The notes under the pieces: generated by a model
Database searches by the model: none
The model's input: the letters and a program-made list of their open reading frames with translations, nothing else
What the model was told of the DNA's origin: nothing
Source of the DNA: Nautilus pompilius
Lineage: Eukaryota > Mollusca > Cephalopoda > Nautilida > Nautilidae
Length of the DNA stretch: 64,000 nt
NCBI GenBank assembly: GCA_018389105.1
Contig: JACATO010000991.1
Coordinates: forward strand, 808,001 to 872,000
Reading direction: 5' to 3'
Shown: piece by piece, positions 2,798 to 62,494 of the stretch
How the letters are laid out: each line of letters begins with the position of its first letter
Position numbering within the stretch: the first letter of the stretch is position 1
Program-made: the position numbers and the translations under genes

Positions 2798-2983
2798 CTT
2801 TACAGACCGGACAGCAGAATCCAGACTTGGTCTCTGTGTGCAAGCAGGATATCTGGGGACAGGACCTCACTACTTGACAGGAGATATTGCCATCTTTGCA
2901 CGTACATTCCTGGCACAGTTCACTACCACTACCTCTTACAAATTTAGCTCCATTTAAAATGATTTGTCCATCCACTAAACAAA
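2798..2983 (-). CDS. Giant gene exon Z: VWC domain (last one seen)
   Basis: VCLVDGQIILNGAKFVRG, CQECTCKDGNISC, CPQISC, FCCPVCKG. It ends AAAG|gtagtg in phase 1, so at least one further exon follows to the left. I find no Cys-rich exon in 1-2797, so the gene most likely continues outside the window. Confidence 0.93.
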
Positions 2984-5900
2984 CTGAAAAGAAAAAAAAT
3001 TTAATGACTTGCTGAAAGTGACAAATATCTATCAGCATTCTAAATGTCTGATATTTTAAATTAGCTATAAAAAAAGAAAACTAGCACATTAGGTGTGGAG
3101 GCCTCTTGCCTCTTTGTATCAAGCAAGCCTAAGCAGGCATAAACTTTCTTGAAAACCTGATAGGCAAAGCGAGCGAGTGGAATATGGACCGCGTCTGGAA
3201 TGCATATTAAAACTTTTCTTTTGTAATGATCAATAAACATTTGTTCTCTATTATTTCAAGGAATTCTTACATTATTTGCACTAATTATTGCAATTGCTTT
3301 ATGCACAATTAAAGAATTTATCAGACTGCAATAACTAACAGTAATAAAGCCACAAAATAATCAGAAATTTACTGTAATTAATTAAGTAGAAACAGCATAA
3401 AAACAAAATGGACTGCTAAACTAAAGTAAAATTATTTTGCTTCATTAACTGTTAACTTTAAAAACTATTTGATTGCACTATCAATGCACCTGTTGATACT
3501 CTGTGGAGTATAAGCTTTCCATATTTCTTCAGGCATACATATTTTAAATTAACCCCTGCAATAATGGTGCAGAAACTATATGGAAATCTTTCATTGTACC
3601 GTGATGCACAAGTACTTTTTTTTTTGTTTGTTTTTTTTACATACTTTGTATGTAGGTTTTCTTTGGTTACCTCTGTCATCGTTCTCTTTTTGGTTTAATG
3701 CCTGGCCTACAATTTCCAACCCTCAAAATAGCGTACACAGACACACACATGGAGAAGATAGTATTCAACAAAATGAAACACCAAGTGCAAAGTTATAATC
3801 TTGAGTGTGCACCATGGATGATAAAGTTCAGTTTTATGAATTGCATAAGCATAATTCAAGCAGTAAAATGAGCTATTAGCGCATTATTTTTTAAACTGGT
3901 TCTAAACTTAATGAAAGCAGACAAGATCAAAGTAGAGTTAGAACAAGTAAAGCCAATATGCCATTTGATCAATGACCATTGGCAATTAGATGAGACTATT
4001 TACCTGTACACTGTGAACAGCACTGTCCCCTGGGGAGGACCCCATTGGTGCATTCTTTTGCACACTTTTCCTTTAGCCAACAAGATAGCAAGCCATTACG
4101 ACAACGACACAGCCGACAGGGATCTGAGGGTGACACCTTTGTTTCCCCAGCTTCATATTCTATTCCATTTTTTACGCATTCTTAAAAAGATTTTTTTTTA
4201 AACTTGAAAAAAAAAGTAACAACAAAGTAAAACAAAACAAGAGTAAATATTTGTCACAGTTTAATCCCACGCGTGCACAAAGCATGAGATCACGTGGCGA
4301 TGCATAGTCAGATCTCAGAGCTTTTAGAGATCTAGCCATTTTTGTTACTGTAATTTACTACTTCCATTGAATACCCCTTTGTCTCCCCACCCCTCAAAAG
4401 GGCATCACTACTTCTAGCCCCCTTAAGCACAATTTTTTTTTAAAGTTCCAGCTTCATAAATTCTTTTGAGCAACCAATCCATAGATCTACACTGTGCAAC
4501 ATTTCTCTTAGGTTTACTCTGACTTAATTTATAACTTAAAAAAAAAATACCTAAGTGCCCTAATGATATTTGAGGTTACTAAGTCGGTAAAAAAAGGGGG
4601 GGGAGACCTAAGTGCCCTAATGATATTTGAGGTTACTAAGTCAGTAAAAAAAAAATAATATAGTAAAAAAAATATTAACTTAATTCTAAAATAGCAGTAA
4701 ATAAATTGAGGCTGTTAAAATTTTTAACAAAGATATAAACAGTAAAAGACTAGGCAACATTACATCACAGTCCACAAACAGAAAACATGCGGCGGAATGT
4801 TTAATTACTTCTTCCAGTCTCCTTTTTTTAAAAAAAAAAAAAATAACTTTATGAAAGTATACGATGACTTGATAACAAATAGAATAAAAATATAACAAGG
4901 ACTGAAAAATCTTTTTAAAACGCTAAAGCATCACACAGGTTCGTCTCTGCACCTTTTGTTTTGGCTTTGAGCAAGTAAAGCGAATTAACAAAGCTGCAAT
5001 GAGCAATGTGTCGAGCTAGTGCAGCATCACTTACTGGGGCAGGCAGACGGGCAGCATTCCCCGTTCTTCTTCAGTGGTCGCTCACAGTTCAGTTCATCTC
5101 GTCGGATGCAGCGAATGGCGCTGCATTTCACAATAGAATTGGTACAAGAACAATTCATACAGATGTTAAAGTCTGGAGTAAAATGTTCCTCATGATGGTA
5201 TTTCTTGCCATCATACTCACAACCTATGATTTTAAAAAACATTTAAATACATAAGTAAATACACTGAGGTATATGTATGTATGTATATTCTGCCTCACTG
5301 CAAAAGACAGCAAAGAATAAATCTAATGAAAAGGTGCTTAAAATTACTGAACTGTAATATGAAATACAAAATCTCTTTAATGATTTCATTGTTTAAATTC
5401 CAGTTGTGGAAAGCTAGACAATTTTCTTAAATAAAACATATCTATCACATGATAGTCTAAACAAAACATAAGAAACCTCTACAAGTGTTAACTTTTAAAT
5501 TCTCTCCAGAGACATAATACTGCATCACATTTATATTTCCTTAATCTCTTTATTTACATGTACACCTGACTGTAATGGAAATAGCTACAGAAATCTGGCT
5601 TTTGCAAACTCTGCAAACAGATTTTATCACATTTTACACCACACAAAACAGCATTTACCATTTTGATATTTGAAACCATTTCAAAACCAGATAATCTGAA
5701 TTCAAGTAGCCTCAATGCAATATGTTGTATGCTATATTTATTTAATAAAACGACAACAGAGGGAAGGCAAATCTGAATCCATAATTTTCTAAAATAGTCT
5801 GAAAAAATAATAATTTAGCCAGAGCTGAACATGAAAATGTGGGGGTTAACAGTATCTACACTAAACTGCACATTCTGTTGGAAGTTCTGCAGATGATGAT

Positions 5901-8900
5901 TATATAAATGTTAGAATAAACAGATTCCTGAACAGAAAAAATAGACAATCAAGCAATCACTGTTTTGTGAACCATGCAATAATATCTGAAAGCCAATAAT
6001 GTTGATAACTTTCACTTGCTATTAATTATGAACATCAAGATTCATTTCTCAGGTCTACTACTGTATAGTATATGCCAACAGTTCTGTTGATCTTAAATGA
6101 TTAATTATCAATAAAATATACAACTGCGCTAATTCACAAGCATGTTTTAGTATTGTATGTTTTAATATTATTGCCAGATTAATGGTTCAGTGTAGAATGA
6201 GATACTAATTTTCAAGTTGCAAATGTTTATAAAATCTATGAGTCCTCTACATCTCAAACAACCATTTTCATGTACTGTATAAAATTGCAGGATTTAAAAC
6301 CTTTATCAAAACATTATTTCCCACACAATTATACGATAATCTAGGTTTAATTTGACTTACCACTATCACAAACTGAACAACATTTTTCTGGAAGCTTCAC
6401 AGGGTTCTTACAGACCAAATTTGGACACATTTCGGCAGCACACGTCACAGTACCCTGATTACATTTACACTGAGTACACACATCTGCCTTGAAACTCTGT
6501 CCACTTTTGTATGTAACTTCATTGTGGTTGCAATCTGTGATGAGAAATGACCGAGAAGATACTGATTTGAAAGAGAATTAACAATCAATTTTGTAAGCAT
6601 GGTTGTATGGAAACTGAATGAATGCCAATTGTAAACTTGCATCAAATGTACCATAAAAAAACCACTTTACATAGAAAAAAAAAAAGAAAAATTCTCAGAA
6701 GCAGTTGCTGATGATGGTCAAGCTTACTCCCCAACAAACATGCCTGTATTGGGACAATGCTGGCGATATACCGTTTTGTACTGCCACCGTTGGCCCGTTA
6801 CCCAGGTCATTGGGCCAATGCTGGGCCAATACCGGCCTACTGTTACAACATGAATTTTTCCACAAACTATATCGGGCCAATACAACAACCTGTATTTGGC
6901 CAGTAATGGCCCAATGGTGGCACATTAATTGGGGCATTAGTTATCAATACAGATGCTCTTCTTCTTCTTAGAGAGATCATGAAATATATTCTGTTCATTT
7001 ATCTTTGTTCAATCCACCTAGCCTTACAAACTGCAGATTAGAGAGAGAATCCATTAAGATTCTTAAAGACCAAGACACAAATAGCATTATTCCAGTTTCC
7101 TGGTAATTCTAATACCAAATAGACAATAAAAGGATGTACTTGCAAGCTTTTTAAAATGTTCCAATGACTGGTTGCAAGAAAATTATGCTTTAGAAGCCTA
7201 AATATTTAGAACAATTCAACCAGTTAAACAGTTTAAGTTGAGTCAGTTACTGCTTTCAAAGATAAAAGTAATTTTAAAAAGATGGAGTCATTTATATGTC
7301 ATAGAATTACTTGCCTCTACATCTGACTCTGTGCGTCCTACATACAGACATGACAACCAAATATGTCCCACAAGCAACCCCACTATTAAATATTCAGATA
7401 TGTCAGTTGACCAAAACATCAGAAACACTTTCTGATATTACTGAATAATTGTCAGAAAATGCTCAGAGGAATGGAGATCAACAATAGATTGTTAAGAGTT
7501 TCCAGAAATTTCTGAAAACAGTACTATAGAAAAACTAAGCAAAGATCAGTCAGGAAAAAGAGAGGCATTCATGTGCCATTAATTTGGTATCTGCAAAAAT
7601 GTTTTACCCCATAGTTTGTTTCTTTGTTTCAATTTATTTAAAATATGTTTTTGGTAATATGCTGTAAAAAGATTAACTTATTGTAACCCATTTATCTCCA
7701 TGAGCAGCTGACCAAGACAAGTTTTCCCACTAATGTCAAACACCAAATAAATCCAACAATCCACTAAAACCATGCAATGTTATGTTGTTTTGGAGATCCA
7801 TTGCTTTCAATCACAGTTTGAAGGAAGAAAATGTGTTGTTGTTCTGAATCCAAGCAAACTGTGTTTGTGAACATCCTTAACAATACAGAGTACATTATCA
7901 GTACCTCCACAGACTGGGCAGCACTCTCCAGGTGGAGTTTGTGGATGCAGACAAGAAATGGATGGACAGTGGATCTCTTTGCATTTCATATGACCATTCT
8001 ATAATAAAAACAACTTTAATTAAATACAGCAAGTTAATGTAGATAACTTACAATCTACTGTTTTCTTATCTGTGTAGCAAGACATTCCATCATTAAATAT
8101 TTTCAATATTTCTTATTAATTATACCATTAACTCCTTGAAAAACATGAAAGATAAAGGTAAAATGTGCTACATAATACATTGCAAACCTTACAAAATGAG
8201 TTAGGTTATTATTATTAACAGCCAATCTGCAAGTAAACTCCACGCAAAATGGTAAATTCCACAGGCATTCATCCAACCATCACCTCCTCCACAAATTATA
8301 ACCCACACACACATTTTGATACTGTCTTCCTTGGGGGAGAGAAGCAGTGTCGTGTTTAAGAGAACAATTGGCTCCTCACCCACCTTCCCCACCAGAAATG
8401 ACACCCCTGGTGAAGTTTAAAGCCAAAATATTAAAAGAAATAATGTTTTACAAACATAAGTTCAACAACACCTGTATCAAACTTCTGAAGGCTGTCAAAA
8501 TTACAAAGAAAATGTCCCACTAAAATCTCAAACTTAAAGATTTCTATGTTGAACTAAACAATCAGCCATTTTCAAATCTAATATGTAACTGTGCAACAGC
8601 CAAAGTAATGAAAGTAATAATGATTTACAAACACAGATTACAAAATCAGAAACAATTATACAAGTCTGTCAAAAGTATAACCTAGTATTTAAAGTCAAAA
8701 TCTCCTAACTTATCATACAAAAATCAAATTTTCACTGCTTTCTATATTGAACCAATTTCTTTTTTGACTCACATATTTGTTGACTGTTTATAGAATTTGT
8801 TCAGCTTTCTCAAGTGGCAAGTATTTTCTTTCTTCATAACAAAAGATCTTTGTGCCTGCATAGATGGGGAAACTCAAGATATTCCTCTATCATTCTCTCT

Positions 8901-11900
8901 AACATCAGTTTACTTTCCTGTGGAAGCACTGGCAGCTTGCAGTCACAAAATCCAGGAACTGTTACTATTGGTTCAGTAGATGAACTTTGTGGCTCCATTA
9001 CATTTCTCATGAGGCTTTGCCTAATCTTTTCATCATCTATCAACCAATGTGTTTTTCTATATTATTTATTTACTTTGAAACTTCAGTTTGAAGCAAGAAT
9101 CTGAGAGAGTGGAAATGCTGGGTTTGTTTGCCAACTATTTATGTAAACACCTTTGCACAGTTAATTTTAGCTAATCCACTGTTCAGCAGCAATCATCTCC
9201 CATCCTTTGGTGCATGGCTGTGGCTCAAGAATATCTGATGTCCCACAACTTTTTCTTGTCAAGGGATTCCTCCATAGTAATTTGTCTATTGCAACCTGGC
9301 CTGGATTCTTCAAGTTTTCTTTTTGCAGCAGCAACAGCAGGGGTAATCTTTTTACTGCAGAAATACTTTGCATCGTATTTGATGCCATGTTTCATCTTTA
9401 ATTGTTTTATTTTTCTGGTAGTTGTAAATATCTTTGTATTTTTTCCACCTTGAGAGATTTCTTGATTGCAAAGCTTGCATTTAGCTTCGATGGAAGCTTT
9501 CTGAATCACAAAATGATTTTTAAAATATCTATGCCTAGGCACTTAGCTGAATTGTATAGTGTATCAGTGGTCATCCTGCCACAATTCTAACTCTTAATTC
9601 CTCAGCTGAACAATTCCGATATTCAACTTTAAAATGATCATCAAGCACAACAAAGGTTCTATGACACTCAATTAAATTTTGTAGTGTTACTAACAAAGGC
9701 TGTTTGGTAATCAGCTTCATTCAGCCACAGTAAAAACCAAGTTTACCTTCCTATTCAGTGTCGTCTGGTTCTTACCAAAGTACACCCCTAACACTTATCC
9801 CATGGTACTGTGGTAGGTATCTGTTGCCCTTAAGAGAAGCAAGACCCCGTGGCAGTTTAATCACTTAGCTCGTTAATATTTTAAAGGACAATTACTTGTG
9901 CAGACTGATCAGGAATTGCTAATTATTAAGAATTAGGCAAAAAAAACAGCATAGAGGCTTTCTGTATCATGAAAAACAGTCTTAATGTTATAACGGTTGC
10001 TAAATTGAAATATGCAAAACACAGTTTTAAATCTATATTTCTAAAAAAAAAATTTGCTCATATGTGTAGATATAACTTCACATACTGCAAGATAAGATTT
10101 TAACCGTCTTTTAAATATTTTCTTTTTCTTTCAACAAAATGATAATGATTAATCAGTAATCGACCATTTTGATAACCATCACACCTCAATGGCAACTATT
10201 CAATTTTGAAAAGAAAAAAAGACTGCATTTGTTTAGTGGAAACAACTGTTTTGCATAAGTGCTTTGATTGGATTAAATGATAAATAATGCTAATCATTTT
10301 CGAAAAGTCATTTCTGCTTGGCGAGCATGACACATGGACTTGCAGTTAAACATTATTCTTAGCTAGGTACATTCTGCATCAATGTAAATATTTTCTTTAG
10401 TCCAAACACCAGTGTGTTTGTTTTGCTTCCCATCTCGAAATGAAGAAAAAAGAAATTCTCCCATTTACTTCACTTGCAAGTTTAAAATATTAAGTTAATT
10501 TTAAAGTTATTAAATAAAATTTTATTACAACACTTAATCTGAGCAGATGTTTTAAATTTTTCTCAAAAAGGATCACAATGCTCCTGAATTTTCATAAAAT
10601 ATCTAAAAATAATCAATCACTTTAATTTTCTTAAATTTATTAAAACAACTTTCAGCACTGCGCATAAAAGATTAGATTCAAGTCGATAAAGATGTAATTT
10701 TAGAAAATCAGCTGTCATCATAGAGAAAATTACAAACACTGTCATTTTATCTCTCTTAAGTGGAGCTAAATGCTTTTTTTTTCCTTCATTTTGCTGCATG
10801 AAAGCAAAATTAACTTATTTTGCTGAATAACAGCTGGCATTCATTAATAAATCATCAAACAGAGCTAGACTCTGTCAATATTTCTTTGTGGAAGTGGACT
10901 TCTTAACTAAGCTCAGGTGGGCGTGAGCTGAACCATGATGTAAAATCAAACAAATACTGTGCATGCATGAGAACCGTACAAATGGTAGAGCACATGAACA
11001 ATGGCTATGTGCTGTACTAGAAAGGAAGTCTGATCCAAGTCTGTCGGGAAATTACACTGAAACTTAAAATAGAACATACGCTTCCTTAGCCTGTACCACT
11101 ACAATTACAAAAAGAAACTCACTGTACAGCTGCAGTTCCTGCATGGCCCCTCTTCCCAGTGAGAGCCATTCTGATGTGAACCACAATCCAAGCAAGTGGA
11201 GCAGCAGTCGTTTCCAAGGGTGATCGGGCTCTGACAGGAATCCATCTGGGGGCAAACACTTTTTTCACATCTGACATTACCAGCATCACACCGGCATCTT
11301 TCACATGGAGTAACAGACGAGACAAAGCTGCTGCCAGACAGATGTATCTTGTTCTGATATTTACAACCAGCTAGTACACAAAAAGAAAACGAATAGTACT
11401 TATTTTCTTTAAACCCCTTCCACACCCCTCACTTATCCTGTAAAGGTTTTCTCTTAGCATAACATGCTTCTGATTCCCTTGTAACTCTTCTCTCTTATTT
11501 CTATCATTGCCTATTCCTCCTGCCATCAATGTCTCTAATACGATCTCTGGAAACAGTCACCAATTTCAGGCTAATGCATCAGGCTGCATGGGTTCTTGGG
11601 GCTTTATCCATAGTGCATATTACTAGTATAACCTTCAAATGGAATAAAACACTAGCTTGTGAGCTTTCTCTGACTTTGTATTCAGCTTTGTCAATTCTGT
11701 TGTACTATTTTGTCCTGCTGCCTTAACAAAGCTAGATACGAAGTCAGAGAGTGAGCTAAGATGTTCTCATAACCTAGTGTTTTATTCCTATGCAAAAGAT
11801 TACACTACCATTCATTGCGTTTCAATACAGAAGTTTAACAACAAACCTAGATGATAATTTTAAAGTCAACAAAAGAATACCTACTACATTAATTAAAAGA

Positions 11901-47900: not shown

Positions 47901-50272
47901 TTTTCCCCATCAAGGGATCTTTCGGCTAGAGACGCAATCGATCTAACGGAGCTTTGCTACAACACGGGGGCTTTCGAACCCCGACTAACGAGGCCCTTCG
48001 GCCCATCTCAGAACTCGCCTACTCCCTTCTTTTTGGAAATGACCGCACACAAAAGAACCAGTGCATGACGTATTTGTAACAAGGATGAGGGTGACCAGCT
48101 GTGTCAGAAGCAGACAGGTACGAGGGAGTAAAGGCATATTAATAACCAAATATAACTTACTGTTGGGTGGTCATAGAAGTTTTGTCGGTTTTCTTACCGC
48201 AACAATGAGATGTCTCACTGTTGCCGAACATCAAGTTCATTAATCAAGGTAAGTTCCATTACAATCAGTACACTTCTGCCAATGATTACAAGCACATTTA
48301 TACCATTTTGAAAAAACCTGGATTTATGGAGTCAATAAACTGTTGGAAGGCAGTTTAAATTGCTGCTTGGTTGGAGAAGGATTTCATACAGAGGAAGCTG
48401 TTGAGGTGTTTGAAAAGGTGGTAGTCTGTGAGAGAAAGGTCTGGTGAATAGGCTGGGTGAGGGAGAACTTGGTACCCCAATGTGTTCAGTTTCTGAAGAG
48501 TCACTTTTGCAATATACAACACTGTCGTGATGCAGGATTGAGCCTCTTCGATTCACCAATGGCAGCCGGCTGTCATTGGGAAAGTTACTGATGAACAACG
48601 TTTAATTCACAGCAGTACCTTTCAGCTGTGATGGTTTCGCCAGGTTGCAAGAAGTTGATGACACCAGCTGCAGTCCACCAGACAGTGACCATGACCTTCT
48701 TTGGGTGGAGCTGGGTTTCGAAATATGATTAGGAGCCTTGTCTCTGTCGAGCCACTGAGCTGATCATTTGCAATTGTCGTAAAGGATCCATTTTTCATCA
48801 CACACAATGACTTGGTCAAGAAATGGGTCGTTTTTGTTTCTTATGACAAAGCAAAGAGCAGATCTCCAATTTATGATTTTGTTGTTTCTCATTCAATGCA
48901 TGAGGCATCCACTTGTCAAGCCTTTTCACCTGGCCGATTGCATCAACATGTTGGGAAACAGTTGCAGTGCCTACATCAAGCTCTCCAGCAATTTCCCACA
49001 TTGCTTTTCTTGGATCGGCTTCAGCCAAGGCTTTCAGACGGCCGTCATCACAGCTGGATGGACGTCCGCTACCTTCCTTATCTTCGAGGCTCACATCTCC
49101 TGATCAAAACTCTGCAAACCATCATCGTACTGCACGTTCATTTGCTGTGTCCTCACCCCATGACTGCTTAATGTTACAAGCTGCCTCGCTCGCTTTGTGG
49201 CCTGGTCTGAACTCGTGAAGCAAAATGGCACAAAAGAAATTTCTATCCCTGCTTCACTCAGAACCCTAAAACAAATATCCATTTTATGATTTTTTAAAGG
49301 GTAGGTTTTGCATAATGTGTGCCAAAGCACACATCACAAAAAGATATACAGCTTATCTACAGAAACCTTTAGAAATAAATGAATTCCAAATTAACATATG
49401 AAAACCGACAAAACCTTTGTAACGACCTGATAGTTGAATGTCAAAAAGTGAAATACAGGTGGGTGTATGACCAGTTGTGCTTTACACGTGTGTAAAGGAT
49501 TTGTAATAAGCACGACCAGTTGTGTGGAGTAAGAGTCAGCACTGAAGAACAAAGTGAAGTGTTTTGCATGTAAGGAAGTAGTGTCTGTCTTCGTACAAAA
49601 GTAGGCTGGAACAACAAAAGAAATACCGTGATCACAGTTCCATGGCTGCTTGTCGAGAGCTTTTCTGTAAAGTGTGGCTCCATATAAAAGACCCTACAAA
49701 AAGAGGTTAAAAAAAAAAAAAAAAGAGAGGATAAAGCATAAATAATGCATCAGATGTTCACCAGATGAATGGGAAGACATTACAAACCTACAAGAGATAA
49801 AGCTTAGAATTATTTGCGTTTATGATTACATTCAGAGACTGGGTTGCAGTAAGGGTAGGTCTTCTTTGGAGCAGTGGCATTGTCTCCAAGAGTGAAGCAC
49901 TATCTGCGCACTGATAAGCAAATGGCCTGACCATGACCGCTATCTCTTGGGAAAACTATCGGGGTAACGATGAATTGTCAGTGAGGAGACCACCAGGAAA
50001 ACAATGCAAGCATTCAGAACCTCCTTCTTCTCCTCCCACCCCCGCACTGGCTCTGGAAGTGGAAGTTGTTTAACCCTTGTGTATGGTGATCGTGTAACAG
50101 AAATCAAAGTAAAATTAGGTGTGTTTCTGTTGTTTCCTATGACAGTGCAACAGTTTGTACCAGTAGGTGTCAGATTAAGGTGTGGACGACCTTCGGCAGC
50201 AGACAGGCTCGCAAGATGTCTACTTTGCTTCTCCAGCCAAGCTTCATAACAAAGGGGCATCTTTATCTCTAC

Positions 50273-50327
<55 letters not shown>

Positions 50328-53300
50328 TATCGCTTGATAGTTTGGTAGAAGTTCTATAATTCACGTCTGGGAGACAGGAGGAAGAATCCTGCTGGGAATT
50401 GCAGTTAGTATCTGCTCATCCGTGATGATGTTCCTCGCTGTAGGTGCCAAAGGATTCTGGATCTTTCGAAGCAAGGTGACCAAACCAAAAGGACGAGACA
50501 ACGGATCCAGCTGTTAGCAGACAACACGGGGAGTTATTTATTTATTTATTTATTTATTTTCGTGTTTAATTAGTCACTACAGGACCGGTTACCTCGCTAG
50601 CGGCGTTCGCCGCCGCACTAGCTCCCCGAAAGGCTCGGCCGCTACTACTTACCCTGAGGCCCTTTCCTCCGTTTCCGTCCTGGCCGAAGTAGACGCGCGG
50701 TTCCCCCGGGGGGCTCCCGGGCTCTTCCTGGAGGGGAAGCTTCCTCGGTCGTCTGCAGTCCACCCTCAGCTCCACTTCCGCCCCCCTGAACACCACCAGC
50801 AGGTCCTCCCAGCCGGAGGGGAGGGGGAACGCATCACGGAAACTCGTCCTCCGGAAAGACTTCCGCCCCTGGTACCTGACCACCAACGACCGGCGGCCGG
50901 CGTCCAGGAGAAGCTCGAGGAGGGGCAGCCTCTTACCGGCCAGGTAAACCCCGAGCAGGGTCCCGACGGAGCTCCCGGCGACGCTGGCGGACACGTGGAG
51001 CGAGAAGGTCCCGCTGAACCGCCTGAAGACGCTCAGGACGCCATCGCTCGTCAGCTCTCCCCGGAAACCGCCTTCCACCCGCCAGGCAGTCGGCGATATC
51101 CTCTCCATCCCCGCTGCCAGTTCCTCGATGATGTCTACACCTTGAAAAATAATTATTGTTTTTTTTTTTTTAAAAGAAATAAAGAGAAATAATTCTTTTG
51201 TTGTTGTTAGAGGACGAGGGCGTTCTGCTAGACATCTTAATGGCACGTGACACGCGTCTGTCCATTAGCCGAGTTCGGATAACTAACTAACTCACCTGTA
51301 TCGCTCCTTCGCCAGGTGCATTAAAGCCATATCCCCCCCAACAATGTCACACCAATAATGGTGTTCACATCTATAACCTCTAATTAATGAATAAAATAAC
51401 ATTTACAGGTACAAACAGATTTTGTCTTGTTTTTCTTTTCTTTTCACTTTTACATTCCTCTCCCAATTTTGCTAAGACCCCTGGAGAAATCAACCATTCG
51501 GACGGCCGCTGGATTCGTAAAAAAACAGAGGAACAAATCTGATCACACAAACGAACGCTGGGTGTCCGTGTCAATATTATTGAACTGTTCGCGAGTATTA
51601 TTCATTCTGTCTCTTTCCAAAGGTTTGGTGGACCCGGCCGCCCTACCATCGGAGAATTGGTTCTGGATCCCGTGTAGTCAGCTTAGACACCTTGGACTGG
51701 GTTTAGGTCTAAAAATAGCAACAAGCAATCAGGTACTAGATAGGGGCACTAACTTGAAAATACCCCTGACGATAATCACCTTCAGTTTACTTCCTTTCTC
51801 TACATTGTTAGAGTTGCAATTTCGTTTCCTTATTTATGTATATCAGTGATAATAACGAATTCTTAATTTTCTGGTAAACAGTAGTTATAATTCAAAGCCC
51901 TATCGTTTCTTTAGTAATCAGTAACTGTATTTCAAAGCCCTATAATATATTTTTTCTTATAAAGATCTGATGTAAATCAAACCCTGATAATCTTTTATAA
52001 ACAGTAATTGGAAGTCAAAGCCCTACAATTTTTTGCTAAACAGTAGTTATAATTCAAAGCCCCGTAATTGTTTTGGTAAAAAATAGTTATAATTCAAAGC
52101 CCTATAATTGTTTTGTTAAACAGTAGTTATAATTCAAAGCCCCGTAATTGTTTTGGTAAAAAATAGTTATAATTCAAAGCCCTATAATTGTTTTGTTAAA
52201 CAGTAGTTATAATTCAAAGCCCTATAATTGTTTTGTTAAACAGTAGTTATAATTCAAAGCCCTATAATCCTTTTGCTAAATAGTAGTTATAATTCAAAGC
52301 CCTATAATTGTTTTGTTAAACAGTAGTTATAATTCAAAGCCCTATAATTGTTTTGCTAAACACTAGTTATAATTCAAAGCCCTATAATTGTTTTGTTAAA
52401 CAGTAGTTATGATTCAAAGCCCTATAATCCTTTTGCTAAACAGTAGTTATAATTCAAAGCCCTATAATTGTTTTGTTAAACAGTAGTTATAATTCAAAGC
52501 CCTATAATTGTTTTGTTAAACAGTAGTTATGATTCAAAGCCCTATAATTGTTTTGTTAAACAGTAGTTATGATTCAAAGCCCTATAATTGTTTTGTTAAA
52601 CAGTAGTTATGATTCAAAAACCCGTAATTGTTTTGCTAAACAGTAGTTATAATTCAAAGCCCTATAATTGTTCTGGTAAACAGTATTTGTAGGTGAAATC
52701 CATACGGTGACCTCTGTCCTCGTCACGTGAACCTCTTCTCTTTTTTTTCAGCCAATCAGGACTCATTTGAACCTGGCTCGGCCAGTTTAAGGAAGCCATT
52801 TCTCCATCTAAATAAAAACAGAGGCCTTTTTTTCTTTTAAGCGCCATGTTAAAGAATCTCCCTTCATAGAAAATAAAATGGAATTGCTTTAATTGAGTTT
52901 TAAGCTAAAATTAATTCTGAACGTGGAAGTGTGAAGACTCTAATGATGCGCATGATTGGCTATTGCGAGAGCCAATGATAAGCGGCCTAACTGGCGGTAG
53001 ACACATTCTCCATTGCATGGCTTTGCGATTGTGTTTGCGTTAGACTGACGCGGACAGATGGGAGGCTGGCTGTAGGCTCGGTGAAAAACTGCCGAAATGC
53101 AAATGGTTGACACATCCAGATTTCTGGGAGGAAAGAAGAAATCACTGGATGAACATCCCAAGAGGAAAATCACCGAAGATGGGAACAGCAGAAGTCACTG
53201 GGTCTCACCCTCCCGGGAATAACTTGCAAGACTGCGAGGGGCAAACGTAACTTCACAATATATGGAGTTATTGGGTTTTGCGAGGTTCCAGGGCTTCTTT

Positions 53301-55938: not shown

Positions 55939-56000
<62 letters not shown>

Positions 56001-56157
56001 CTTCTTTGAATGTGTATGCCAAGTAACCAGAGAAATTCGCGAAACGTCGTCATATGAACGTTCGGTGAAAACAGGGGAGACTTACTTTCTCTCATATTTG
56101 GTTCTCCAGAATTAACCCGGCCGCCATCGTGCGCGGTGCAGCAGACAGAGCCTGCAT

Positions 56158-56189
<32 letters not shown>

Positions 56190-56239
56190 GGCGGCGCGCT
56201 GATATACGTCCACATCACGCGGAGGCCACACGTCTCCAT
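2798..56239 (-). CDS. Giant NELL-like/tyrosinase-like/VWC mosaic secreted protein (27 exons placed, 3' end outside window)
   Basis: A single minus-strand gene with 27 exons recognised from GT-AG borders, matching phases and domain continuity. Order: signal peptide; TSPN/LamG-like; coiled coil; VWC; EGF; Kunitz; VWC-like; tyrosinase-like 1; GYDxx repeats; Cys-rich NPC module; EGF; Kunitz; GYDxx repeats; VWC-like; tyrosinase-like 2; GYDxx repeats; NPC module; seven VWC domains. About 2310 codons are visible. Most junctions are phase 1, as is usual for shuffled extracellular modules. One exon (length 1 mod 3) must lie between 50653 and 45406. The front half matches the NELL plan (TSPN, coiled coil, VWC, EGF). 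VWC strings are known to bind BMP-type ligands, and Kunitz folds inhibit proteases. A secreted scaffold is inferred. Two adjacent genes spliced in my model is the main alternative, but the phase chain and the repeated cassette argue against it. Confidence 0.88.
4004..4180 (-). CDS. Giant gene exon Y: VWC domain
   Basis: KCVKNGIEYEAGETKVSPSD, CRLCRCRNGLLSC, LPRGQCCSQCTG. Phase 1 at both ends, with a clear T-rich acceptor. Confidence 0.93.
4549..4650. repeat. Tandem duplication of about 57 bp
   Basis: The phrase cctaagtgccctaatgatat, followed by ttgaggttactaagtc, occurs twice (about 4550 and 4607), separated by an A/G-rich run. A local duplication in an intron. Confidence 0.85.
5035..5223 (-). 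CDS. Giant gene exon X: VWC domain
   Basis: GCEYDGKKYHHEEHFTPDFN, CMNCSCTNSIVKC, then NGECCPSACPS. The middle part is Arg-rich (AIRCIRRDELNC). Phase 1 at both ends. Confidence 0.94.
6361..6534 (-). CDS. Giant gene exon W: VWC domain
   Basis: Single-exon VWC: DCNHNEVTYKSGQSFKADVC, TQCKCNQGTVTC, CPNLVC, EKCCSVCDSG. Phase 1 at both ends. Confidence 0.94.
6705..6945. mobile_element. MITE-like element rich in GGCCAATA motifs
   Basis: Imperfect inverted ends of about 35 bp (ccccaacaaacatgcctgta on the left against ccccaattaatgtgccacca in reverse on the right), with repeated internal TGGGCCAATRCTGG words. No transposase. In the intron between exons V and W. Confidence 0.5.
7905..7998 (-). CDS. Giant gene exon V: VWC domain (second half)
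   Basis: NGHMKCKEIHCPSISC, LHPQTPPGECCPVCGG. Together with the end of exon U it forms a VWC of standard length. Confidence 0.92.
8800..9545 (-). mobile_element. Broken hAT transposon with BED finger and hAT C-terminal remnants
   Basis: From 9542, FVIQKASIEAKCKLCNQEIS, followed by a TT...L..KH region, is a BED zinc finger of hAT transposases. Around 8900-8850, MIEEYLEFPHLCRHKD resembles the hATC dimerisation end. The space between them is far too short for a full catalytic domain, and the frame is broken at least twice. An internally deleted copy in the intron between exons U and V. Confidence 0.6.
9620..11122. other. Intron sequence without recognised content (U-V, left of exon U)
   Basis: AT-rich, no conserved frames or repeats that I can name. 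Confidence 0.5.
11123..11370 (-). CDS. Giant gene exon U: complete VWC and first half of the next
   Basis: Full VWC: GCKYQNKIHLSGSSFVSS, CERCRCDAGNVRC, NDCCSTC. It is followed by LDCGSHQNGSHWEEGPC and RNCSCT, the start of another VWC finished in exon V. Donor ACA|gtgagt, phase 0. Confidence 0.93.
11371..12852. other. Intron T-U
   Basis: AT-rich; a 65-codon plus-strand frame near 11529 has no support. Nothing else seen. Confidence 0.5.
12853..12946 (-). CDS. Giant gene exon T: VWC domain (second half)
   Basis: DGLVTCLPVSCQQLKC, QYPVKQPGDCCPSCEG: the typical VWC end (C-x(4)-C-x(4)-C, then CCPxC). First of the C-terminal VWC run. Confidence 0.92.
13356..13435 (-). CDS. Giant gene exon S: VWC domain (first half)
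   Basis: CIDAEGIDRLEGSRWNRSDC, QECTCQ: the VWC opening, with CxxCxC at its end. Phase 0 donor, continued by exon T. Confidence 0.88.
13990..14588. mobile_element. MITE with GCATAC[CT]TGCCAACT inverted ends
   Basis: Left end gcatacttgccaactttcta and right end (reverse) gcatacctgccaactctcct, about 600 bp apart, with AGTG flanking both sides as a possible 4-bp target duplication. Both ends carry a G-rich gggggag stretch. No coding capacity. Confidence 0.65.
15775..17095 (+). mobile_element. Tc1-like transposon, decayed copy 1
   Basis: About 1.3 kb. Plus-strand remnants MHTGVNVRVWGCFVGYSP and DLIKIDGI, then about 16610 DDDPKHNAKLKTQYF, match the VWGCFS and QDNDPKHT blocks of Tc1 transposases; several frame breaks. 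The whole segment aligns in reverse with 28205-29580. It lies in the intron between exons R and S. Confidence 0.7.
17301..17393 (-). CDS. Giant gene exon R: second half of NPC module, copy 2
   Basis: MSGAVCRTRVCGKCEPEWYD, GISGKILDCKG: the AxCR-x(2)-CxxC-x(3)-WY pattern of exon K again. In copy 2 the module is split by an intron that copy 1 lacks. Confidence 0.85.
17686..17780 (-). CDS. Giant gene exon Q: first half of NPC module, copy 2
   Basis: LCLATYHYSQCPLGKSPIRC, then LEDLCQGRHCPG. The CP-x(7)-CL-x(3)-C-x(3)-CPG spacing parallels exon K. Starts with one base of a split Arg codon and ends in phase 1. Confidence 0.85.
17781..19185. other. Intron P-Q
   Basis: AT-rich with poly-T and poly-A runs. 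No element or conserved frame seen. Confidence 0.5.
19186..20994 (-). CDS. Giant gene exon P: VWC-like module, tyrosinase-like domain 2, GYDxx repeats and post-repeat domain
   Basis: One 1809-nt exon. Residues 1-30: repeat end (GFNCFGYNRDS). About 35-105: Cys-rich VWC-like region (GEKFSAGCQECVC, KCTCNK). About 110-350: tyrosinase fold starting RRKEIRDLGREELERYQ. CuA: LYSQHMPQIVGSIMFLPWNR; the second and third ligand His are Val and Asn. CuB: MSHLFQAWVGGHM and YDPLFYSHMAF; ligand positions are Ser, Gln and Met. Only about one of six copper ligands survives, so this is a pseudoenzyme. About 375-505: more than 20 GYDxx-type repeats. About 510-602: post-repeat domain (HHCNGYFMGP, RICPAVSHLPE). 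In copy 1 the same parts are spread over exons G-J. Confidence 0.94.
20995..22380. other. Intron O-P
   Basis: AT-rich. Short frames only; no repeat family recognised. Confidence 0.5.
22381..22546 (-). CDS. Giant gene exon O: GYDxx repeats between Kunitz 2 and tyrosinase 2
   Basis: Regular repeats GYDQNGYDAEGYDRQGYDRR and GYDREGFNLTGYN, then EYDGIIDYNEQGYDEEGYNR. The matching place in copy 1 (between Kunitz 1 and the VWC-like exon G) has no repeats, so the two cassettes differ here. Confidence 0.92.
22696..22778 (-). CDS. Giant gene exon N: degenerate repeat linker
   Basis: 83 nt encoding YGFNMADLNKHGNRRTEKMS and SDQFDWQ. It joins the repeats of exons M and O in frame and looks like a decayed stretch of GYDxx motif. 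Acceptor in attgtag, donor CAAG|gtaggt. Confidence 0.82.
23361..23568 (-). CDS. Giant gene exon M: Kunitz 2 and first GYDxx motifs
   Basis: With exon L it completes CTLPLLTGSC (C-x8-C), then RWHYDSSLAQC, GCSGNANNFQSAGMC and RRC: a full six-Cys Kunitz domain. P1 would be Asn or a neighbour (SCNRT), not the basic residue of trypsin inhibitors. The exon ends LTYGYNAEGYDR, leading into repeats. The acceptor at aatttaaag was chosen because it keeps the frame and the Kunitz spacing. Confidence 0.9.
25150..26800 (+). mobile_element. Decayed hAT-type transposase fossil (ZBED/DUF4371-like)
   Basis: Discontinuous plus-strand matches to a familiar transposase type: TAAELTPAYHVVMGHSSYLS, SNSEVIHKICYGRTKAES (about 25490-25650), YTADSAAVKYGKQKY and ANYTCHVLHSIAKYVGKLS (about 25840-25970). 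Stops and shifts are frequent. In the intron between exons L and M. Confidence 0.6.
27045..27752. mobile_element. pogo/Tigger-like MITE
   Basis: Left end cagggaatcctctcttaacc and right end (reverse) cagaaaatcctctcttaacc: inverted repeats of about 26 bp, CAG termini, TA at the right flank. The 700-bp interior has no reading frame. Confidence 0.55.
28007..28165 (-). CDS. Giant gene exon L: second EGF-like domain and start of Kunitz 2
   Basis: DYCHPNPCQHGGTC and CNCPPNYDGNFC give a six-Cys EGF; VCTLPLLTG is the start of a Kunitz domain whose rest is in exon M. The order EGF then Kunitz repeats that of exons E/F. Confidence 0.93.
28205..29580 (-). mobile_element. Tc1-like transposon, decayed copy 2 (inverted relative to copy 1)
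   Basis: Shares long stretches with copy 1 in reverse, e.g. tgagaatcccatcaattttt and aaggtgtagtccagttgttg. Its end near 28205 (cactggtgttcagaattatg) corresponds to the right end of copy 1 near 17080. No intact reading frame. In the intron between exons K and L. Confidence 0.7.
30527..30766 (-). CDS. Giant gene exon K: Cys-rich NPC module, copy 1
   Basis: After a Ser-rich linker: CSCEEVAACPTNPCLTVSC, then PGYPNAECRVDFCNQCKAAW and YVNGEKVDC. The pattern NPC-x(4)-CPGYP-x-AxCR-x(3)-CxxC-x(3)-WY is a small Cys module that I associate with invertebrate matrix proteins; I do not know an established function for it. Phase 1 at both ends. Confidence 0.88.
31225..31464 (-). CDS. Giant gene exon J: last GYDxx repeats and post-repeat domain, copy 1
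   Basis: Begins LTIDGYDQYGFDVNGYDKDH, then CNYYSKGPF and a helical-looking segment containing LLSQPKDFLKMVARTCPPLE and FWITQPRD. The same layout (HHCN...GP, then ...RICPAV) follows the repeats of copy 2 in exon P, marking this as part of the duplicated cassette. The post-repeat domain itself is not one I recognise. Confidence 0.9.
31465..32581. other. Intron I-J
   Basis: AT-rich; a slightly GC-richer patch around 31900-32000 is probably an old repeat, but I cannot name it. Confidence 0.4.
32582..32752 (-). CDS. Giant gene exon I: GYDxx pentapeptide repeats
   Basis: About 56 codons, nearly all in a five-residue period, G-[YFL]-[DN]-x-x, e.g. GYDQRGYDRFGFDREG, then a less regular end (HGFDEKCLNRKG). 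Both borders are phase 1, so the exon can be gained or lost without a frame change. Confidence 0.92.
32981..33876 (-). CDS. Giant gene exon H: tyrosinase-like domain 1 (probable pseudoenzyme)
   Basis: Begins CIAVAVRKEIRDMSWEEI and covers a whole type-3 copper (tyrosinase/hemocyanin) fold. CuA region: LYIEHSMHSSNGPFYLPWHR; the first and third ligand His are present, but the His expected nine residues before the WH is Ser. CuB region: FSAYIHNFIGGDM and YDPLFYAIHSYVD; the first CuB His is Ser, the second and third are present. Four of six ligands thus remain, so normal oxidase activity is unlikely. The exon ends in the first GYDxx repeats (GYNQFGYGEDGFDRRG). Confidence 0.93.
34467..38670 (+). 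mobile_element. Broken Ty1/copia-family LTR element in intron G-H
   Basis: A fossil, about 4.2 kb, flanked by the 5-bp target duplication ACTAC. Repeats at the ends begin TGTTAGAATATGACC and end CCCTACAACA; the 3' LTR is 38504-38670, and at the 5' end the match is recognisable only over 34467-34502. Directly after it, GGTTATGGGCCCAG is complementary to the anticodon arm of initiator tRNA-Met, the priming mode known for copia. Parts in copia order: gag with CCHC zinc knuckle, protease/integrase region, reverse transcriptase and RNase H (up to about 38420). It is broken, by an estimated six to ten interruptions. It sits opposite to the host gene and is moderately old. Confidence 0.9.
38905..39125 (-). 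CDS. Giant gene exon G: VWC-like module before tyrosinase 1
   Basis: Cys-rich: DCKSHHRHLNGRVNVEV, then CEEVKCTEERQTCNIPGK and GCQHCICQKNKQLDCK. The CxxCxC...C core resembles the first half of a VWC. The last VWC Cys is supplied by the first codons of the next exon (KCIAVAVRKEIRD). Confidence 0.85.
39582..39724 (-). CDS. Giant gene exon F: second half of Kunitz 1 and linker
   Basis: Encodes GCGGNVNNFESLDEC, the canonical Kunitz GCxGNxNxF motif, then ITMYGACCLHQFSTLLDD and a polar linker. The final Kunitz Cys spacing is longer than usual. Phase 0 donor CAG|gtgagg. Confidence 0.9.
40072..40293 (-). CDS. Giant gene exon E: EGF-like domain and first half of Kunitz 1
   Basis: Starts DPCRSQPCHHGGTC, an EGF with six Cys ending in CICPKPFEGQFC, and continues into CIWPPDPGFCSQVVPRYYFD, the opening of a Kunitz (BPTI) domain. 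The split-codon base G joins the next exon. No calcium-binding EGF consensus precedes it. Confidence 0.92.
40430..42790 (+). mobile_element. Tc1-like transposon split by a nested element
   Basis: The left part (about 40430-40925) ends in a region matching the transposase block around VPFTDES. The right part (from about 42191) continues with VGRKKWGNVGQCNQWQF and then RHAIASGRHSLG, GFIFQHDNDPKHADN. The two parts fit one Tc1 transposase in order, with several frame breaks. The break point holds the 1.27-kb element listed separately. Confidence 0.65.
40926..42190 (-). mobile_element. 1.27-kb inverted-repeat DNA element with a conserved protein of unclear superfamily
   Basis: Long inverted ends: left atctgagacttgtttccgac and, about 50 bp in, ggtttttgcctatcacgtca; the right end gives the reverse complement with few changes. 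Flanks CTTAT/CTTAG suggest a short target duplication. On the minus strand from 42181 the product reads SVFAYHVKFLFYGILEWL, FPPLHIKPGLMKQYAKAL, VFDGPQIRKLMRDQRF, VHFLNSHLDKFPENLGDVSD and ERGERFHQDVQAMEERYQG, across two or three frames. I know similar proteins only as repeat-associated unknowns in invertebrate genomes and cannot name the superfamily. Confidence 0.7.
43640..43880 (+). repeat. tRNA-type SINE
   Basis: Starts like a decayed tRNA head (gtttagtggccttgagttat, with ggtcccattccc in the B-box place), then a body containing ctctcaggtttcctcccaca and tctggaaatgaa. The body end matches the SINE at 61973, showing a shared core. Confidence 0.5.
44117..44165 (-). CDS. Giant gene exon D: short VWC piece
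   Basis: A 49-nt microexon encoding KGKPVCIVRMDVPSCI plus one base. It supplies the middle of VWC 1. The usual CCxxC end of a VWC is absent: the chain runs straight into the EGF domain of exon E, so VWC 1 is a shortened version. Confidence 0.85.
44310..44441 (-). CDS. Giant gene exon C: end of coiled coil and start of VWC 1
   Basis: 44 codons in phase 0. NSNLADRVSYLETCECKPSC closes the coiled coil and is followed by CSYEGEIYSDSESWQPDAC and TICQCE, a VWC N-terminal half. The LE-C-C-x(3)-C pattern is close to that of NELL1/2 at the same point. Confidence 0.9.
44668..45024 (-). mobile_element. Internally deleted mariner-type element (357 bp)
   Basis: Ends cagggtgccccacaaaaatc and (reverse) cagggtgctccatcagg, flanked by TA on both sides. 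The minus strand carries AWNNIPLEVIQRATGSWLDR and CAAAHGKHFE, the C-terminus of a mariner-type transposase. The catalytic part is missing. Confidence 0.75.
45288..45406 (-). CDS. Giant gene exon B: coiled-coil segment
   Basis: Acceptor in tgccattag, donor CACAG|gtacc. It encodes DIWLQADDSGG followed by TDDRVLTLERQVAQLTVMVD, a heptad-like stretch with regular Leu/Val spacing. NELL proteins trimerise through a coiled coil at this position. It starts with two bases of a split codon and ends in phase 0, matching the next exon. Confidence 0.85.
45407..46268. other. Left part of the intron between exons 2 and B
   Basis: No element recognised. The exon missing from the model (last part of the TSPN domain) must lie somewhere in 45407-50652, but I could not place it. 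Confidence 0.4.
46277..46546. mobile_element. hAT MITE with perfect 8-bp target duplication
   Basis: 270 bp with inverted ends CAGTGCCGGATTTA / TAAATCCAGCACTG and the identical octamer AGTTCACG on both sides (46269-46276 and 46547-46554). CAGTG ends and 8-bp duplications are typical of hAT. No coding capacity. Confidence 0.85.
47700..48015. other. GC-rich block with strong hairpins (unidentified)
   Basis: Stands out from AT-rich intron. Perfect stems: GGTGCCTC with GAGGCACC (47859-47893) and CGGGG with CCCCG (47965-47983), plus ggcccttcggccc at about 47992. On the minus strand, GGGGTTCGAAAGCCCC recalls a tRNA T-arm/B-box but does not fold as a proper one. It could be a SINE, a retroposed structured RNA or a coding remnant. 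Confidence 0.35.
48164..49430 (-). mobile_element. Mariner transposon, broken copy A
   Basis: About 1.27 kb with inverted ends containing gttttgtcggttttc. Transposase on the minus strand: SLEDKEGSGRPSSCDDGRLK, LAEADPRKAMWEIAGELDVG, IGQVKRLDKWMPH, then further blocks in other frames (SAQWL, catalytic CDEKW region). At least three frame breaks. Near full length for a mariner. In the intron between exons 2 and B. Confidence 0.85.
50272..50326. repeat. (TAA)n microsatellite
   Basis: About 18 uninterrupted TAA units, in the intron between exons 2 and B, about 330 bp from exon 2. Confidence 0.95.
50653..51140 (-). CDS. Giant gene exon 2: thrombospondin-N / laminin-G-like domain
   Basis: 163 codons starting VDIIEELAAGMERI, after a polypyrimidine-AG acceptor, and ending before gtaagt in phase 0. 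Features of the NELL/thrombospondin N-terminal domain are visible: an opening amphipathic stretch, hydrophobic beta-strand alternation, ELRVDCRRPRKLP (compare the VDC motif of TSPN) and a terminal VYFGQDGNGGKGL, which aligns with the LWLGQ...G region of NELL proteins. The last strand and the Cys-rich tail are expected in the next exon, which I did not find. The exon is much richer in GC than the introns around it. Confidence 0.82.
51885..52692. repeat. 40-bp minisatellite, about 20 copies
   Basis: Unit cagtagttataattcaaagc plus cctataattgttttgttaaa, head to tail, with point variants (ccgtaattg, ggtaaaa, gattcaaag); the first few copies are more diverged. In intron 1, about 750 bp upstream of exon 2. 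No coding pattern: 40 is not a multiple of three. Confidence 0.95.
52940..52985. promoter_or_regulatory. Inverted pair of CCAAT boxes
   Basis: catgATTGGCTattgcgagAGCCAATgata: a near-perfect palindrome of NF-Y-type sites about 10 bp apart, in moderately GC-rich sequence. Small plus-strand frames start downstream (53097 MQMVDTSRFLGG..., 53262 MELLGFARFQGF...), none recognised. Could be an internal promoter in intron 1. Confidence 0.3.
54171..55244 (+). mobile_element. Mariner transposon, broken copy B
   Basis: About 1.07 kb; starts ggtcgttacaaaggttttgt and ends with the matching inverted repeat. Plus-strand blocks SLEDKEGSGRPSSCDDGRLK, IAGELDVSTATVSWHLDAIG, FLDQIITCDDKWVLYDNRKR, HPKKVMVTVWWTATGVI and PGETITAGRY follow mariner order. 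Shorter than copy A, with internal loss and several frame changes. In intron 1 of the giant gene, inverted relative to copy A. Confidence 0.88.
55845..55890. repeat. Tandem 23-bp duplication
   Basis: gaactgtatcccctcacaga occurs twice in direct succession, about 200 bp inside intron 1 from the exon 1 donor. Confidence 0.9.
55937..56000. repeat. (TTA)n microsatellite next to exon 1
   Basis: About 21 TTA units, starting 86 bp downstream of the exon 1 donor on the gene's strand. Confidence 0.95.
56086..56239 (-). CDS. Giant gene exon 1: signal peptide
   Basis: Read from the ATG at 56239, the product begins METCGLRVMW and has a hydrophobic core of PP, seven Leu and three Met, then a polar stretch. 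This is a classic secretory signal. An in-frame upstream ATG at 56293 would add 18 residues (MKGGGSGLRR...) ahead of the core and is less likely. The donor is AGAAA|gtaag; the leftover A joins GT of exon 2 to make a Ser codon. The Leu run is coded by a CTG trinucleotide tract. The link to exon 2 rests on phase, position and the need for a signal peptide before a secreted domain. Confidence 0.72.
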
Positions 56240-58289: not shown

Positions 58290-59015
58290 CTGCTCTCTCT
58301 CTCTCTCTCTCCGTACTGACGTCATCTCTCTCTGTACTGACATCATCTCCCTCTCTCTCTGTACTGACGTCATCTCTCTCTCCGTACTGACGTCATTTCT
58401 CTCTTACTGACGTCATCTCTCTCCTCTCACTCTCTCTGTACTGACATCATCTCTCTCCTCTCTCTCTCCGTACTGACGTCATCTCTCTCCTCTCACTCTC
58501 TCTGTACTGACGTCATCTCTCTCCTCTCTCTCTCCGTACTGACGTCATCTCTCACTGTACTGACGTCATCTCTCTCTGTACTGACGTCATCTCTCTCCTC
58601 TCTCTCTGTACTGACGTCATCTTTCTCCTCTCTCTCTCTGTACTGACGTCATCTCTCTCTCTCTCCGTACTGACGTCATCTCTCTCCTCTCTCTCTTCGT
58701 ACTGACGTCATCTCTCTCATCGTACTGACGTCATCTTTCTCCTCTCTCTCTCCGTACTGTCATCTCTCATCGTACTGACGTCATCTCTCTCCTCTCTCTC
58801 TCTGTACTGACGTCATCTTTCTCCTCTCTCTCTGTAATGACGTCATCTCCCTTTTTCTCCGTACTGACGTCATCTCTCTCCTCTCTCTCTCCGTACTGAC
58901 GTCATCTCTCACTGTACTGACGTCATCTCTCTCTGTACTGACGTCATCTCTCTCCTCTCTCTCTGTACTGACGTCATCTTTCTCCTCTCTCTCTCCGTAC
59001 TGACGTCATCTCTCT
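58290..59015. repeat. CRE/CT minisatellite: 23 perfect TGACGTCA palindromes
   Basis: Units of roughly 20-40 bp of the form (CT)n-[CT]GTAC-TGACGTCA-TCT. I count 23 exact TGACGTCA octamers, two TGACATCA variants and one unit with the core lost, from 58317 to 59008. TGACGTCA is the full palindromic binding site of CREB/ATF. Spacer lengths vary while the octamer is nearly constant. Two isolated CREs lie at 57129 and 57665. Confidence 0.97.
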
Positions 59016-59020
59016 CTATA

Positions 59021-62435: not shown

Positions 62436-62494
<59 letters not shown>

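Follow-up and report, generated by a model that had tools for sequence, protein, structure and literature searches.

A predicted Nautilus pompilius gene sets two tyrosinase folds with incomplete copper sites between a NELL-like front and a chain of VWC domains

The minus strand of the window, i.e., the whole 64,000-nucleotide stretch of Nautilus pompilius DNA analysed here, encodes a long chain of extracellular domains that we read, with rather more confidence than doubt, as one gene for a large secreted extracellular scaffold with dead tyrosinase folds, in which a cassette would have been taken up by a NELL/KCP-type chain and then duplicated. The exons are as follows, numbered from the 5' end.

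E1, 56086..56239, minus strand: start ATG and signal peptide (METCGLRVMWTYISAPPLLLLLLLMMMDAGS...); donor 5.7, hydrophobic core mean KD 3.23
E2, 50653..51140, minus strand: main part of the TSPN/laminin-G-like domain, collinear with NELL2; alternative acceptor at 51134
E3, 49627..49693, minus strand: end of the TSPN-like domain (GLLYGATLYRKALDKQPWNCDH); acceptor 5.0, donor 0.2
E4, 45288..45406, minus strand: first part of the coiled coil, from heptad a/d positions
E5, 44310..44441, minus strand: end of the coiled coil and first half of a VWC domain; donor at 44315 (in frame with E8) or 44310
E6, 43498..43539, minus strand: doubtful small exon (KCSCLNDRHWCLSQ); poor acceptor (-3.4), unneeded with the E5 donor at 44315
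E7, 42635..42698, minus strand: doubtful exon, from splice sites only
E8, 40072..40293, minus strand: EGF-1 (Pfam 1.3e-6) and first part of Kunitz-1 (Pfam 5e-18), with Ser as the P1-position residue
E9, 39582..39724, minus strand: end of Kunitz-1 and GACC motif (Pfam)
E10, 38905..39125, minus strand: Cys-rich stretch and half-VWC before tyrosinase-1, from alignment with cassette 2
E11, 32981..33876, minus strand: tyrosinase-fold domain 1 (Pfam 1.5e-23), 3 or 4 of 6 copper ligands; start of pentapeptide array 1
E12, 32582..32752, minus strand: pentapeptide array 1 (G[FY][DN]xx), 13 units at a spacing of 5 across E11-E12
E13, 31225..31464, minus strand: array end and post-array segment (HCNYYSKGP...), from alignment with cassette 2
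E14, 30527..30766, minus strand: small Cys-rich module, from alignment with E20-E21
E15, 28007..28165, minus strand: EGF-2 (Pfam 6.8e-6) and start of Kunitz-2
E16, 23361..23568, minus strand: Kunitz-2 (Pfam 2.5e-17), with Asn as the P1-position residue; GACC motif; start of array 2
E17, 22696..22778, minus strand: array 2, from curated splice sites and phases
E18, 22381..22546, minus strand: array 2 (GYDQNGYDAEGYDRQ...), from the G[FY][DN] unit count
E19, 19186..20994, minus strand: Cys-rich stretch, half-VWC, tyrosinase-fold domain 2 (Pfam 1.6e-21; 0 of 6 copper ligands), array 3 and post-array segment; 602 open codons
E20, 17686..17780, minus strand: first part of Cys-rich module 2, from the cassette alignment
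E21, 17301..17393, minus strand: second part of Cys-rich module 2, from the cassette alignment; donor 8.7
E22, 13356..13435, minus strand: first half of tail VWC 1 (Pfam)
E23, 12853..12946, minus strand: second half of tail VWC 1 (Pfam)
E24, 11123..11370, minus strand: tail VWC 2 and first half of VWC 3 (Pfam)
E25, 7905..7998, minus strand: second half of tail VWC 3 (Pfam)
E26, 6361..6534, minus strand: tail VWC 4 (Pfam)
E27, 5035..5223, minus strand: tail VWC 5 (Pfam)
E28, 4004..4180, minus strand: tail VWC 6 (Pfam); poor acceptor (-4.6)
E29, 2798..2983, minus strand: tail VWC 7 (Pfam, splice sites); splices on past the window or runs to a TAA near 2699

The exons run from 56239 down to 2798 in a model whose splice sites and phases were curated by hand. 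An automatic exon chain served as a guide only: its 5' part linked wrong open reading frames, with for example TSPN partly out of frame, and its codon model had been trained on the same exons, so that its score is no evidence. With the E5 donor at 44315 joined directly to E8, the model has 27 exons and encodes 2314 aa with no stop and 164 Cys, and its bounds (ATG at 56239, last donor at 2798) are exactly those of an earlier note on this DNA, in which no strand is given. That note had described 27 exons with canonical borders and agreeing phases, and we observe the same: all 26 acceptors are AG and all 27 donors tested, including that of E5 at 44310, are GT (as is 44315). A 29-exon variant, with the E5 donor at 44310 and the weak E6 and E7, is likewise stop-free (2351 aa). 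Stop trinucleotides make up 5.8% on the minus strand, and at the window's composition the chance of meeting none is 10^-15.7 over the 602 codons of E19 and 10^-61 over the 2351 codons of the 29-exon frame.

A Pfam profile search of the protein, with matches requested up to E = 1, together with the curated model gives the domain order signal peptide, TSPN-like domain, coiled coil, half-VWC, two cassettes and seven VWC stretches, all in this stop-free frame; to this extent the analysis bears out the earlier note, in that the NELL-like front, both tyrosinase-fold cassettes and the VWC tail share one long reading frame. No VWC was found on the plus strand when it was searched. By generic splice scores the acceptors of E5 (-1.6) and E28 are poor and those of E2 and E16 are about 0, while the donors of E3 and E25 (-0.1) are weak; E3 was included because an exon of its phase is required between E2 and E4. 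Exons 8 to 29 are much firmer as one unit than is the single-gene reading of the whole.

Within that unit, exons 8-14 and 15-21 share one order of parts: EGF, Kunitz, GACC motif, Cys-rich stretch, half-VWC, tyrosinase fold, pentapeptide array, HCN...GP segment and small Cys-rich module, with an additional array ahead of the Cys-rich stretch in cassette 2 only. The two cassettes are 32% identical over 628 columns (BLASTP), with 38% identity over 103 columns for EGF-Kunitz and 37% over 300 columns for the tyrosinase exons. This kinship was absent from the earlier account of the locus, as were the Kunitz domains, the pentapeptide arrays and the loss of copper ligands. The three cassette-border introns (5/8, 14/15 and 21/22) are of phase 1, as would fit the transfer and copying of a symmetrical module; this is weak evidence because phase 1 is common in the gene (17 of 26 introns). 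Intron positions inside the cassettes differ between the two copies, so a duplication, if it was made in this way, would be old or followed by intron gain or loss; tandem duplication is the likeliest history of the cassette.

As a rule, Kunitz domains that inhibit serine proteases carry Lys/Arg or a bulky residue at P1. The Kunitz fold signature is present twice (Pfam 5e-18 and 2.5e-17). At the P1 position, which follows the second Cys, Kunitz-1 carries Ser and Kunitz-2 carries Asn, with neither Lys/Arg nor a bulky residue in either domain; judged from these residues, neither domain would suit trypsin-type inhibition. For the small Cys-rich module of E14, no credible match was found in the PDB; its top match there, a designed helical repeat (E = 0.0009), was judged a composition artefact. 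The protein holds 42 G[FY][DN] units, 40 of them in the three arrays (13, 14 and 13), and array 3 shows self-match peaks at lags of 5 and 10. Tyr, Phe, Gly and Asp abound in the arrays, which could serve as cross-linking substrates.

With respect to the tail, E22-E29 contain seven VWC stretches (Pfam, 2.8e-54 for the whole), whose closest solved matches are the VWC of collagen II (1.7e-8, the best, for VWC 3) and chordin (0.0033). Binding of a BMP-type ligand by the tail would be a fair guess from these sequences. Positions 1-2797 show no convincing last exon, and the 3' end of the gene may lie beyond the window or just after 2798; the sequence past exon 29 resembles the intron start after exon 25, which favours splicing over the TAA. 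An open reading frame at 1501-1644 that resembles half a VWC was considered as a further exon and left out, as it is without an acceptor. By eye, the intron starts after exons 25 and 29 are alike (GGTACTGATAATGTACT and GGTAGTGAAAATGTATT, at 7880-7905 and 2770-2800, minus strand), a likeness that hints at duplicated exons within the VWC tail.

Searched against the PDB, the joined front (269 aa) gave five distinct matches at E ≤ 10, namely three NELL sequences at 0.0042, 0.0044 and 0.0067 (10ft, 9pwq and 9oz6) and two collagen II VWC matches at 0.011 and 0.015; the reversed front, used as a control, has no PDB match at E ≤ 10. Smith-Waterman comparisons with NELL2 (1000 shuffles each, the target being a region already picked because it aligns) gave Z = 12.2 for the coiled coil with the VWC (0 of 1000 shuffles as high) and Z = 5.3 for a weak, collinear TSPN match (1 of 1000), while the coil alone showed no likeness beyond shuffles (Z = -0.6, 726 of 1000 as high). 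A 36-aa stretch over E4-E5, chosen by eye, has LIVM at nine of its ten a/d positions, equalled by 2 of 5000 shuffles. The half-domain VWC1 in E5, tested with E6 joined, scores E = 0.005, below Pfam's cut-off. TSPN by itself has no Pfam match at E ≤ 1 and no PDB match at E ≤ 10, and this lack of a PDB match weakens the NELL label.

A coiled coil directly ahead of a VWC is a NELL trait, and it is present here (heptads; Z = 12.2). Two others are absent: the four coil-region Cys of NELL2, in place of which a single Cys lies between E2 and the coil end, and the run of six EGF domains that NELL has set between its VWC domains, in place of which Pfam finds two isolated EGF domains, one per cassette. 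From sequence, then, the term "NELL-like" is supported for the predicted front, mainly by the stretch where coil and VWC meet. The earlier note had equated TSPN-coiled coil-VWC-EGF with the NELL plan; the resemblance of the front to NELL stands (best solved match E = 0.004), and the EGF part of the claim overreaches because both EGF domains are cassette parts and not NELL2's run of six.

The central four-helix type-3 copper fold is recognised in both cassettes (Pfam 1.5e-23 and 1.6e-21), and a structural model of domain 1 (pLDDT 76.6, pTM 0.81) also agrees with it. The top Foldseek hit of that model is Streptomyces tyrosinase 1wx2 (TMq 0.79), and among the 50 matches listed bacterial tyrosinase and aminophenol oxidase chains reach TMq 0.75-0.82 and molluscan hemocyanin 0.65-0.74, values to be read with the input alignment in mind, which is mostly Streptomyces (35 sequences) and biases the model towards the tyrosinase fold. 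The model thus suggests that domain 1 has kept this fold; the single-sequence model of domain 2 (exon 19) was poor (pLDDT 33.6) and was discarded. A search for related loci found none for domain 2 in viral contigs and none for either domain in genome contigs.

Copper ligands were read at six columns that carry His in all 35 of the Streptomyces sequences used, chosen partly by what we take to be the ligand positions of Streptomyces tyrosinase. The choice also rests on the spacing rule of the alpha subclass, H1(n)-H2(8)-H3 and H1(3)-H2(n)-H3, as stated in the available portion of PMC3658974. His occurs in at least 34 of the 35 sequences at nine columns; of the three that were set aside as non-ligand, two also show His in domain 2. 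The six ligand columns of domain 1 are Y, H, H, S, H, H (4 of 6, the second H being gap-separated) when it is aligned with six bacterial tyrosinases, and Y, gap, H, gap, H, H (3 of 6) when it is aligned with the 35 Streptomyces sequences. Domain 1 thus retains CuA-H3, CuB-H2 and CuB-H3, and one of the two alignments also puts a His at CuA-H2, 10 residues from H3 rather than 8; CuA-H1 is Tyr, and CuB-H1 is Ser or a gap depending on the alignment. Domain 2 reads Y, Q or gap, N, S, Q, M, i.e., 0 of 6 in both alignments. The His of "IEH" in domain 1 and of "SQH" in domain 2 were considered as CuA-H1 and rejected, as both alignments place Tyr there.

The set of six copper-binding histidines is therefore incomplete in both domains under either alignment, and since neither site is complete a phenol oxidase role appears unlikely; since domain 1 keeps three or four ligands, some metal binding by it is possible. 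The enzymatic alternative, a Tuphoxin-like phenol oxidase that is secreted, active and equipped with matrix-binding domains, could point to a fold that is clearly that of a tyrosinase and to the three or four histidines kept in domain 1, yet we give it hardly any credence in view of the Tyr at CuA-H1, the missing His at CuB-H1, the 10-residue distance of the possible CuA-H2 and a second domain that has lost every ligand.

A more serious alternative concerns the join between the front and the first cassette, which is the weak point of the single-gene model. The E5 donor at 44315 (score 2.9) is better than that at 44310 and splices in frame to E8; this direct splice loses a VWC cysteine, or else two weak exons must be used. 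When the whole E5-E8 interval was scanned for a second start in the phase required by E8, one candidate emerged at 44008-43771 (minus strand), a signal-peptide-like exon (MSVLGVWQLFFSCSVILLFFLSSSYTC..., hydropathy 2.66, donor 2.2) that joins E8 in frame and may be a fair start for a second gene. A phase-matched scan covering 18 of the 28 introns gave six weak signal-peptide exon candidates, and all 28 introns hold nine signal-peptide-like candidates versus five on the opposite strand (nine in 46 kb), a whole-gene rate from which one candidate in the roughly 4 kb between E5 and E8 is about the chance expectation. As an observation in its own right, the open stretch 43771-44008 is a possible alternative first exon.

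Under a two-gene reading, exons 1-5, together with unseen 3' exons, would make up a NELL-like gene, and its neighbour on the same strand would be an EGF-Kunitz-tyrosinase-VWC gene whose separate signal peptide is encoded upstream of exon 8. Such a split would account for the junction 44310-40293 being the weakest of the model, for the missing half of VWC1 and for the fit of the 44008-43771 exon to the E8 frame, and it accords with the statement, in the part of Banyai and Patthy available (PMC4967905), that new domain architectures are frequently gene-model errors. We nonetheless hold it to be unlikely: E5 joins E8 in frame through the better-scoring donor, a single candidate in 4 kb matches the chance rate, and no last exon that would close a front gene came to light, albeit in a search that was not systematic. 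That the whole is an assembly or gene-model chimera without a biological counterpart, as several poorly scoring splice sites and a model resting on one genome could suggest, seems very improbable to us, since a single strand of a single contig carries all the parts, in one frame and with borders of compatible phase, and the two cassettes are mutually consistent. We consider it likely that exons 1-29 form a single gene.

For this single gene, phase-1 exon shuffling would have brought the cassette into an ancestral NELL/KCP-type chain, where it would later have been duplicated. The protein would be secreted and its chains would oligomerise through the coiled coil, with the dead tyrosinase folds and the Kunitz domains acting as structural or binding modules, possibly as folded spacers. 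The Tyr-rich pentads (G-F/Y-D/N-x-x) would serve as flexible linkers, open to cross-linking by an active tyrosinase or peroxidase, and the VWC tail would engage a ligand, possibly of BMP type, or matrix. More tentatively, and with less than even confidence, we propose that an animal tyrosinase fold turned into a non-catalytic adhesion or scaffold module and, as part of an EGF-Kunitz phase-1 cassette, was shuffled into a NELL/KCP-type chain and duplicated, to give a Tyr-rich, cross-linkable, ligand-binding matrix protein.

Several known systems resemble parts of this architecture. Kielin/chordin-like proteins have a TSPN-like start, a long VWC chain and a C-terminal VWD, and the protein here shares with them a putative TSPN-like start and the long VWC chain (seven stretches); we know of no tyrosinase, Kunitz or EGF cassettes in that family. 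Bacterial tyrosinases and molluscan hemocyanins share the fold and the motif order, whereas here copper ligands are lost and the folds are embedded in a mosaic of about 2300 residues. According to the available portion of PMC7083938, NELL1 and NELL2 form trimers, NELL2 without its coil region is monomeric, the six EGF domains of NELL2 are flanked by five VWC domains, and its coil region contains four Cys. The protein here resembles NELL1/NELL2 in being predicted to be secreted and in its succession of putative laminin-G/TSPN-like domain, coiled coil and VWC, with more VWC later, and differs from NELL2 as described there in its two single cassette EGF domains, its Kunitz and tyrosinase folds, its at least seven tail VWC and its one coil-region Cys.

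Tuphoxin, a putative phenol oxidase of ascidians, joins EGF and TSP1 to an intact tyrosinase (PMC9395347, from the portion available). As described there, the likeness lies in secretion, in a tyrosinase domain with EGF-like domains in one species and in a proposed matrix role; in contrast to the protein here, its single tyrosinase domain keeps the copper-binding histidines, TSP1 and cupredoxin-like domains are present, and that portion reports no Kunitz or VWC domain. No TSP1 repeat was matched by Pfam in the protein here, and an intact tyrosinase site is also absent. Loss of ligand histidines from type-3 copper folds has itself been described for the Biomphalaria hemocyanin-like proteins Hcl-1/Hcl-2 and for arthropod hexamerins (PMC5201427, in the section available). 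There, too, at least one ligand histidine is lost, other roles are probable and phase-1 introns stand before linker sequences, but Hcl-1/Hcl-2 consist of hemocyanin functional units with linkers, and Hcl-1 has one histidine replaced per unit, fewer than here.

The combination of tyrosinase, Kunitz, VWC and TSPN in one chain was not found described in the full-text literature searched, outside which subscription journals mostly fall; annotated orthologues may exist. The author of the earlier note knew of no described protein with tyrosinase folds inside a NELL/chordin-like chain, and no counterexample was seen in that literature. The known roles of the tyrosinase fold are those of enzyme and oxygen carrier, and domain mosaics are common in the matrix. 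If our reading is correct, an enzyme fold has been reused as an extracellular building block and joins the reusable extracellular modules, the locus offers a case of a shuffled cassette that was later duplicated, and the protein is a candidate for hardened or adhesive tissues, its Tyr-rich arrays being cross-linked by another enzyme.

Other elements lie in and around the gene. The intron before exon 11 holds a frame-broken copia-type retroelement on the plus strand (34621-37683, perhaps to 38417), with Pfam matches to gag (1.1e-13) and RVT_2 (up to 4.6e-21). An open reading frame at 37803-38417 resembles the end of this element and has no Pfam match, and no repeats of at least 40 bases were found around the element. 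Intron 1 contains a Mariner-type transposase fragment (54710-55189, plus strand; Transposase_1, 7.4e-26) and tandem repeats at 51864-52685 with about 20 copies of a 40-mer. By eye, 48764-49168 resembles 54434-54724 on the other strand; its minus-strand open reading frame is without a Pfam match. A tRNA gene search found none in the window. Upstream of the gene lie a TCTCTC...GTACTGACGTCA array (58304-59016) and an insulin-like gene on the minus strand (60681-63686). The A-chain-like exon of the latter (RKR-GIMNECCYQKPCAWEEYAEYC) matches Pfam Insulin alone at 7.8e-5 and, joined with a B-chain-like exon at 63686-63517, at 6.1e-5 over profile positions 4-81 of 81.
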